Shown in pieces: positions 48,494 through 49,897 of a stretch of DNA of 64,000 nt; position 1 is the stretch's first letter; each line of letters begins with the position of its first letter. The translations under genes were made by a program, and so were the position numbers. This DNA is from Micromonospora inositola (GTDB lineage: Bacteria; Actinomycetota; Actinomycetes; Mycobacteriales; Micromonosporaceae). Location of the stretch: positions 1,922,001-1,986,000 of the forward strand of contig NZ_LT607754.1 in assembly GCF_900090285.1 (NCBI RefSeq), in the 5' to 3' direction. The notes under the pieces were generated by a model, which was given only the letters and a program-made list of their open reading frames with translations, searched no databases and was not told where the DNA came from.

Positions 48494-49897
48494 GTGTCGG
48501 TCGCCGACGACATGCGGACGGAGCGTTCCGGTGGACAGCCGCCCGCGCCGACGCCGCGGGACGGGCAGTTCGAGAAGACCCCGCCCCAGGACGTGGCCGC
48601 CGAGCAGTGCGTCCTCGGCGGCATGCTGCTCTCCAAGGACGCCATCGCCGACGTCGTGGAGATCCTGAAGTCCAACGACTTCTACCGCCCGGTGCACGCC
48701 ACCGTCTTCGACGCGATCCTCGACATCTACGGCCGGGGCGAGCCGGCCGATCCGATCACCGTTGCGGCCGCCCTCGCCGACTCCGGCGATCTGGCCCGGG
48801 TCGGCGGCGCCCCCTACCTGCACACGCTGATCGCCAGCGTGCCCACGGCCGCGAACGCCGCGTACTACGCGCGGATCGTCGGCGAGCGCGCGGTGCTCCG
48901 CCGGCTGGTCGCGGCCGGCACCAAGATCGTCCAGCTCGGGTACGGCACCGGTCAGGGTGGCAGCCGGGACGTGGACGACATCGTCGACCTGGCCCAGCAG
49001 GCCGTCTACGACATCACCGAGCGGCGGGTCAGCGAGGACTTCGCAGTGCTCGCCGACATGCTCCAGCCGACCCTCGACGAGATCGAGGCGGTGGGGGCCC
49101 AGGGCGGGGTGATGACCGGCGTGCCGACCGGCTTCAGCGACCTCGACCGGCTCCTCAACGGCCTGCACCCGGGCCAACTTATTATCGTGGCTGGCAGGCC
49201 CGGTTTGGGCAAGTCTACGGCAAGCATGGATTTTGCCCGAAATGCTGCCATTCGCGCCAACCAGGCGGCCGCGATCTTCTCGCTGGAAATGAGCAAGGTC
49301 GAGATCGTCATGCGGCTCCTCTCGGCCGAGGCCCGGGTGCCGCTGCACGTGCTGCGCAGTGGGCAGCTCTCCGACGACGACTGGACCAAGCTGGCGCGCT
49401 GCATGGGCGAGATCAGCGAGGCGCCGCTCTTCGTCGACGACACGCCGAGCATGAACCTGATGGAGATCCGGGCCAAGGCGCGGCGGCTCAAGCAAAAGCA
49501 CGACCTCAAGATGATCGTGGTCGACTACCTCCAGCTGATGACCTCGCCAAAGCGCACCGAGAGCCGGCAGCAGGAGGTCGCCGACCTCTCCCGTGGCCTC
49601 AAGCTGCTGGCCAAGGAGGTCGGGTGCCCGGTCATCGCGGTGAGTCAGCTGAACCGTGGTCCGGAGCAGCGGACGGACAAACGTCCGCAGTTGTCTGACT
49701 TGCGTGAATCTGGGTCAATTGAACAAGATGCTGACGTAGTAATCCTTTTGCACCGCGACGACTACTACGACAAGGAGTCGCCGCGGGCGGGCGAGGCGGA
49801 TTTTATTGTTGCCAAGCACCGGAACGGTCCGACCGACACCGTGACCGTCGCCGCCCAGCTGCACCTTTCGCGCTTCGTCGACATGGCCATCGTCTGA
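48494..49897 (+). CDS. dnaB: replicative DNA helicase DnaB
   Basis: 467 aa hexameric helicase unwinding DNA at the fork. N-terminal domain AAEQCVLGGMLLSKDAIADV; RecA-like domain with Walker A GRPGLGKST (about residue 235), Walker B MIVVDYLQLM, and DLRESGSIEQDADVV. GTG start after GAGGGGGGACC. No intein is present, but codons around Walker A (49175-49252) and RESG/SIEQ (49679-49751) end in A or T far more than the rest. In M. tuberculosis the matching gene (Rv0058) carries an intein. Confidence 0.97.
   Translation: MSVADDMRTERSGGQPPAPTPRDGQFEKTPPQDVAAEQCVLGGMLLSKDAIADVVEILKSNDFYRPVHATVFDAILDIYGRGEPADPITVAAALADSGDLARVGGAPYLHTLIASVPTAANAAYYARIVGERAVLRRLVAAGTKIVQLGYGTGQGGSRDVDDIVDLAQQAVYDITERRVSEDFAVLADMLQPTLDEIEAVGAQGGVMTGVPTGFSDLDRLLNGLHPGQLIIVAGRPGLGKSTASMDFARNAAIRANQAAAIFSLEMSKVEIVMRLLSAEARVPLHVLRSGQLSDDDWTKLARCMGEISEAPLFVDDTPSMNLMEIRAKARRLKQKHDLKMIVVDYLQLMTSPKRTESRQQEVADLSRGLKLLAKEVGCPVIAVSQLNRGPEQRTDKRPQLSDLRESGSIEQDADVVILLHRDDYYDKESPRAGEADFIVAKHRNGPTDTVTVAAQLHLSRFVDMAIV

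Follow-up and report, generated by a model that had tools for sequence, protein, structure and literature searches.

The dnaB gene in the window (the whole stretch of 64,000 nucleotides analysed here, from the 6.7 Mb genome of Micromonospora inositola) raises the question why an uninterrupted gene, spelled almost entirely with codons ending in G or C, changes its spelling at the very points where relatives carry inteins. The gene, which codes for the replicative DNA helicase (48494..49897, forward strand, GTG start), was assigned from its open reading frame and translation and from Pfam matches to DnaB N and DnaB_C (E 2.5e-105 for the latter). Its product has 467 aa and aligns end to end with uninterrupted relatives, the same-genus orthologues being 92-98 % identical to it, which agrees with the first-pass annotation in that no intein is present.

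With the stop codon counted, 52 of the 468 dnaB codons end in A or T, and 32 of the 52 lie inside three islands. Outside them the count is 20/414, i.e. the remainder is about 95 % G/C-ending. Patch 1 (49175..49252, forward strand, codons 228-253) surrounds the Walker A motif and has 13 A/T-ending codons in 26; it had been placed correctly by the first-pass annotation, which however tallied 13 in 30. Patch 2 (49679..49750, forward strand, codons 396-419), around RESG/SIEQDAD, has 15/24, exactly as had been counted. Patch 3 (49799..49828, forward strand, codons 436-445) is delimited by its fast synonymous turnover; its own A/T-ending codons are 436-439 and 445, and the core of codons 436-439 (49799-49810), already remarked on as a third short patch, is A/T-ending in 4/4. 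When the codon order was permuted 20,000 times, the peak of patch 2 (15 in 25 codons, at codon 394) was never reached and that of patch 1 (12 in 25 codons) had a p value of 0.00025, so that chance is ruled out and the patches are real. Three of the 43 coding-like ORFs in the window exceeded dnaB in their 25-codon count. The stretches concerned start at codons 2, 10 and 41 of the respective ORF after mechanical extension and are probably located at or upstream of the true start; the strongest internal island among the 43 is that of dnaB. In 160 genomes of the genus, and from codon 20 onward, more than 30 % A/T-ending outside the islands was seen at nine isolated codons only. Isolated codons of this kind include E265, R274, Y345, R367, S384 and R388 (window 49286-49657), which are A/T-ending in 45-97 % of the 160 genomes, R388 in 97 %, opposite to the usual bias.

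The P-loop and the RESG|SIEQDAD junction had been named as intein sites, and relatives confirmed both to the exact insertion point. The dnaB genes of 160 genomes were compared, codons being placed against the window protein by tblastn with three query pieces; the genus sampled is presumably Micromonospora as drawn by GTDB, with Salinispora included. In 79/160 genomes an intein is inserted exactly between K240 (AAG in the window) and S241 (TCT), at 49213/49214 on the forward strand (site 1), and in 46/160 exactly between G407 (GGG) and S408 (TCA), at 49714/49715 on the same strand (site 2). The residue after the boundary is Ser at both sites (S241 and S408), one of the three (Ser, Thr or Cys) expected there. 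Neither site is occupied in 62 genomes, site 1 only in 52, site 2 only in 19 and both in 27. On a tree of dnaB codons 1-215 and 265-385, intein state changed at least 45 times at site 1 and at least 44 times at site 2.

The 79 site-1 inteins all start with Ala and end with His-Asn, and the 46 site-2 inteins all start with Cys and are mostly about 426 aa long. The site-1 inteins are between about 270 and 510 aa long, many of them being shortened, which suggests repeated loss of the endonuclease part. In Pfam searches of three examples, a LAGLIDADG_3 match was found in a full-length and a short site-1 intein and in one site-2 intein; the full-length site-1 example also matched Hom_end and the site-2 example Intein_splicing. 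The window's own genome gave no Intein_splicing match at E <= 0.001. Three genomes with a site-1 intein (G001, G003 and G007) likewise gave no match, i.e. this type is missed by the model, and for this reason the null search cannot show the genome to be intein-free. Two site-2 inteins, of 1277 bases in L010 (G014) and 1367 bases in L096 (G088), are out of frame inside an essential gene, which is probably sequencing error and otherwise hard to explain. The dnaB of L246 (G238) has an apparent loss of frame after codon 407, at intein site 2, with nothing inserted, and this genome was left out at site 2. A second full-length DnaB, 73 % identical and with no intein, occurs in two species, at G031:C18:123526-124881 and G125:C1:5256419-5257756.

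The spelling around each site goes with the state of that site. Among codons 240-253, 46 % are A/T-ending in the 81 empty alleles and 18 % in the 79 filled ones; among codons 408-418 the values are 41 % (114 empty alleles) and 21 % (46 filled alleles). The first-pass annotation had offered three readings of the patches, and the first, that they are scars of inteins once resident and later lost, fails in its simple form because filled alleles are less recoded beside site 1 than empty ones. In filled alleles K240 is spelled AAG (77/79), S241 AGC or AGT (79/79) and I409 ATC (41/46); the prevailing spellings in empty alleles are AAA (49/81), TCN (72/81) and ATT or ATA (80/114), respectively. The site-1 core AAG|AGC was present in 75/79 filled and 4/81 empty alleles, and 21.9 of 23 independent pairs with supported branches followed the intein with none opposing (median p 4.8e-7); the site-2 core TC[G/C]ATC was present in 41/46 filled and 29/114 empty alleles, with 18.1 of 28 independent pairs following and 1.8 opposing (p 2.2e-4), both cores having been chosen after inspection of the codon tables, so that the p values are not blind. 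When the codons of one site were set against the intein at the other, median p values were 1, 1, 0.39 and 0.23. Recoding goes with the absence of the intein, and does so only at its own site. Neither the 5' half of patch 1 (codons 228-239) nor patch 3 showed a link to intein state. A site spelling that differs from that of invaded alleles and is linked to absence of the element, the mark of alleles resistant to homing, was found here for codons picked post hoc.

Empty and filled alleles usually differ at several codons at once, and in most genomes the core spelling of empty alleles is not that of the filled ones, which a scar of a lost intein would have kept. A single foreign A/T-rich block shared by descent was rejected as the source, the 81 empty alleles containing 74 distinct 12-codon haplotypes. 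A phage or plasmid source was not found: the best phage proteins were 62-64 % and plasmid proteins up to 68 % identical, with no near relative among the matches listed.

The islands also change fast. Codon variety at conserved residues was raised in the 160 genomes at codons ~225-256, 393-424 and ~433 to the C terminus, and elsewhere in dnaB the excess was at most 0.13 per block, except in block 9-16, which has a single usable codon. On a tree built from the rest of dnaB, A/T-versus-G/C flips per two-fold or Ile codon numbered 5.7 in the background and 32.0, 29.5 and 26.3 in patches 1, 2 and 3, respectively (n=160); in the 62 both-empty genomes the values were 2.1 and 11.9, 10.0 and 9.3. Silent flips in the islands are about five times as frequent as in the background. 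In pairs with ~7 % synonymous background difference, patch 1 differed at 23 % of its codons when both alleles were empty, 17 % when both were filled and 50 % when the states were mixed, and control stretches stayed near background. Among the nearest relatives of the window dnaB, G114 (site 1 filled) differs from it at 23/298 background codons and at 16/25 in patch 1, and G074, the closest both-empty relative, differs at 8/25 codons in patch 1. It had been stated in advance that the scar idea would fail if close relatives shared the patches or if the bias were common along dnaB. Neither was found: G074 has another codon at 12/23 positions of patch 2, compared to 27/296 of the background, and A/T-ending codons outside the islands are few and isolated. 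The first-pass interpretation is not refuted on these grounds.

Other conserved stretches and motifs of dnaB showed no recoding in the codon-variety scan and control stretches of the 160 genomes, and a gene-wide or motif-wide codon bias was rejected, the excess being confined to the islands. A function of the codons in translation speed, RNA structure or some other DNA-level process at the protein motifs, with no relation to inteins, is highly improbable. The patches do lie on conserved motifs, patch 3 is without an intein, and patch 1 is present in some genera where no site-1 intein was seen; however, other conserved dnaB motifs have no patches, a genus with a similar protein and few inteins lacks them, and a patch depends on the intein of its own site.

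Three other genera were searched, whole or as a sample of 60, and in these the islands follow the local abundance of inteins. Genus g41 has inteins in 2/60 genomes at site 1 and 4/60 at site 2, and its empty sites are 4 % and 3 % A/T-ending (30 loci; 30/60 genomes read). In g28 inteins occupy site 1 in 4/11 and site 2 in 0/11 genomes, with 42 % and 0 % A/T-ending at the empty sites (7/7 both-empty genomes), and in g44 the counts are 4/7 and 1/7, with 52 % and 42 % (3/3 loci). For comparison, Micromonospora has 79/160 and 46/160 with 46 % and 41 %, respectively. The site-1 rule is repeated in g28, where S241 is AGC in 4/4 filled alleles and TCN in 5 of 7 empty ones (the five printed). In the family outside the genus, S241 is TCN in 28/36 filled alleles, and AGC at this position as a universal need of the endonuclease was rejected. 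Among 80 named loci, which are the best uninterrupted matches and hence all empty by selection, dnaB is plain in Actinoplanes and Paractinoplanes (24 loci, ~5 % and 4 % A/T-ending), recoded at site 1 only in Catellatospora (4 loci) and nearly plain in Salinispora (5 loci). Nine uninterrupted dnaB genes from other families of the order have 0-5/26 A/T-ending codons at patch 1 and 0-5/23 at patch 2, with the exception of one from a less GC-rich genome, which has 9 and 7.

Sequences beside the sites are exchanged together with the intein. In close pairs of opposite state (background below 13 %), codons +1 to +4 of site 1 differ in 79 %, compared to 39 % when both are empty and 20 % when both are filled; at site 2 the corresponding values are 56, 19 and 12 %. 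The excess in opposite-state pairs is back at baseline by ~16-20 codons. Among filled alleles, the correlation of the flank 236-247 with the intein is weak (partial r 0.17, p 0.004) and there is none with the host (0.02, p 0.38); the flank 228-239 tracks both, and control stretches beside site 1 track the host. Beside site 2 the tracking of the intein was not significant, with p values from 0.07 to 0.73, except for codons 434-446 (0.014); two of the 46 site-2 inteins, with broken frames, were excluded from this comparison. Family-wide, AGY at S241 changes 8 times on the intein tree and 3 times on the host extein tree, i.e. it follows the host better.

Flank exchange is clear in another gene as well. 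A further intein lies after GDSALG in a ParE/GyrB-like protein (parE-like topoisomerase B) of other species of the genus (L266-L273, L275, L276, L278, L281 and L287), and from its sequence the insert looks like an HNH endonuclease. In filled parE the site is followed by SARVART in 13/13 printed loci and in the 6 analysed loci (5 genomes, L266 and L349 being one genome), and in empty parE by T-[S/G]-R-[M/L]-A-R-S in 20/20; of 34 loci, 8 having no N part in the retrieved stretch, all filled as judged by open frames, were excluded. Around the site, 1-6 of 28 codons are A/T-ending in the 16 empty TSRMARS alleles and 3-6 in the filled ones, and the four empty TGRLARS alleles have 2, 9, 13 and 15. 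Strong recoding was thus seen in three of the 20 empty alleles, all TGRLARS (L328 with 15, L348 with 13 and L352 with 9 of 28). The mean is 14 % in empty and 17 % in filled alleles, no higher in the empty ones. Co-conversion is clear in parE and recoding is found in a minority, and the averages alone would not support escape. At the RuvB intein site little or no recoded patch was found (28 empty, 4 filled). A RuvB P-loop intein (PPGLGK|TTLANI) occurs in other species (L292, L294, L295, L296 and L319). Inteins usually begin with Cys, Ser or Ala; the first residue of the RuvB intein is Pro in the three printed (L292, L294 and L295).

A flank that differs with gain or loss of the element and decays with distance, as a co-conversion tract does, is therefore present both in the close-pair gradient of dnaB and in the parE flank. 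One could then suppose that co-conversion is all there is: the flanks would be replaced from the recombination partner, often another species, and the patches would be mixed imported haplotypes, with no selection on cutting. The difference between opposite-state pairs, the tracking of the intein by codons 236-247 where site-1 controls track the host, and the two parE spellings all agree with this. It leaves unexplained, however, why the empty dnaB alleles are the A/T-rich ones and why flips are ~5 times more frequent in both-empty genomes as well, and 74 haplotypes in 81 empty alleles are unlike one imported block; we consider it unlikely as the sole explanation. The second reading of the first-pass annotation, gene conversion from an intein-bearing donor, is accordingly supported in part: flank haplotypes swap with state, the flank 236-247 follows the intein weakly and the parE flank travels with it. 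The recoded version belongs to the empty alleles, which means that it is not simply the flank of the donor.

Less probable still is a mutagenic origin, in which the endonuclease cuts empty alleles and error-prone repair from an uncut sister copy piles up synonymous errors, with no benefit to the host. Mutagenic repair has been proposed, beside co-conversion, for the raised polymorphism next to yeast mitochondrial mobile introns, according to the accessible part of PMC5378118. In 240-253 the commonest spelling differs between states at nine codons, at six of them by a third-base C-to-T or G-to-A transition, which plain mutation supplies. On the other hand, this process predicts more variety rather than a near-complete split by state such as that of the site-1 core, and at least two base changes separate AGC from TCN. 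Both rivals, co-conversion without selection and error-prone repair, account better for the variety than for the assignment of spellings to states.

The explanation that we favour, with a confidence somewhat above even, is that the empty alleles are survivors which have escaped the homing endonuclease by synonymous change, mixed with co-conversion of flanks as inteins come and go. The LAGLIDADG endonuclease of each intein would cut intein-free dnaB near the insertion point, and repair would copy the intein in. Alleles that had drifted to other synonymous spellings would be cut badly or not at all and would stay empty. In a G/C-rich gene the silent changes available would be mostly C-to-T and G-to-A, and A/T endings would prevail at empty sites because these are the changes that mutation supplies there. 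Gain or loss of the intein by recombination would replace a short flank too, of up to ~15 codons on each side, and filled alleles may then drift back towards G/C, which would fit their intermediate A/T level. The window dnaB would be an empty allele recoded at both sites.

Changes that stop the endonuclease from cutting were the third reading of the first-pass annotation, and it is the best supported of the three. The site-specific link to absence, the approximately 5-fold silent change and the pattern of the three further genera argue for it, as do the LAGLIDADG domains of the inteins (two site-1 and one site-2 example in Pfam) and the strong recoding of the three empty TGRLARS parE alleles. 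The sequences would suggest that recoded sites are cut less well and that they are maintained by selection, and not just by mutation. Several observations weigh against escape. The main caution comes from the reported tolerance of homing endonucleases to single synonymous changes (PMC3024317, accessible part), and haloarchaeal MCM endonucleases are described in the accessible part of PMC10643990 as also cutting the mostly synonymously different site of a related species. At ~90 bp, the affected stretch exceeds the 12-40 bp stated for homing recognition sites in the portion of PMC2814812 consulted. Turnover is fast in filled alleles too, and 18-21 % of their codons are still A/T-ending against a background of 5 %. 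Four empty alleles have the site-1 core and 29/114 the site-2 core, the AGC core is not universal outside the genus, and codons 228-239 have no link to state. In the first family sample (85/113 non-genus genomes examined), the contrast between exposed and unexposed had a p value of 0.001 by genome and 0.094 by genus, the list of exposed genera having been read by eye among the matches listed. Recoding with no site-1 intein seen was found in g32 (11/14), g48 (8/14) and g21 (6/14), one genome each, and site-1 inteins with little recoding in g51, g55 and g56. RuvB with its little or no patch, the parE averages that are not raised in empty alleles, and patch 3, which behaves alike with no intein at all, also count against escape.

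Patch 3 turns over about as fast as patches 1 and 2. At codons 432-449 no intein was found, since none of the 160 genus and 85 family alleles examined is interrupted there. Across the phylum, 134 of 139 genomes gave a match and in none of the 134 was it broken at patch 3, although among the matches listed the part after site 2 is absent from at least four. It is possible, although we hold this tentatively and think it on balance doubtful, that recoded islands outlive the parasite, and that patch 3 (codons 436-445, DFIVAKHRNG) is a third homing target whose intein or endonuclease is extinct, rare or unseen, the hosts resisting by purely synonymous recoding.

Raised exon diversity beside mobile self-splicing introns has been described in fungal mitochondria (Repar and Warnecke 2017, PMC5378118, accessible part). 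The dnaB case resembles it in having a mobile homing element and a steep, short gradient of mostly synonymous variation around the insertion site. The fungal case concerns introns within species, and in the accessible part of PMC5378118 the authors weigh co-conversion and mutagenic repair rather than escape by recoding. In dnaB, unlike what that part describes, the elements are inteins, 160 species are involved, and the composition of the site depends, site by site, on presence of the element. In haloarchaeal mcm, which also codes for a replicative helicase, as far as the accessible text of PMC10643990 goes, empty alleles resist the intein and the flanking codon is co-converted on invasion, which parE resembles here. 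Resistance there is described as a Pro at +1 that blocks splicing, with the site still recognised by the endonuclease, whereas in dnaB the candidate barrier is synonymous and leaves the protein as it was. The mycobacterial DnaB inteins DnaBi1, in the P-loop, and DnaBi2, in the H4 motif, are known from PMC7360933 (accessible part); the position of DnaBi1 matches site 1 and that of DnaBi2 is probably site 2. The inteins are present in those mycobacterial genes, whereas both sites of the window dnaB are empty.

A literature search, with most subscription papers outside its scope, recognised no report of synonymous, site-specific recoding at empty intein sites. In yeast VMA1/VDE, resistant targets reportedly exist, together with a cycle of invasion, fixation, decay and re-invasion in which empty alleles occur; dnaB is alike in that empty alleles exist alongside invasion and re-invasion. 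We know of no genus-wide recoding island in that yeast system. Raised diversity beside mobile introns, co-conversion and amino-acid resistance are already known, and the new part would be the synonymous, site-specific recoding of empty intein sites.

Part of the reason why inteins occupy the best-conserved positions of essential genes is thought to be that the host has no escape by way of a changed protein. If hosts escape by silent respelling, such sites would be no safe havens, and the origin of resistance to a homing drive could be followed in natural populations. With its 160 species, two polymorphic sites in a single gene, dozens of state changes and a six-base marker, the genus makes the question directly testable. 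If patch 3 is indeed a homing target, recoded islands would be a fossil record of homing elements, and scans for islands in GC-rich genomes would predict homing sites as yet unknown. More generally, an island of codon usage within a GC-rich gene can be the trace of an absent mobile element.
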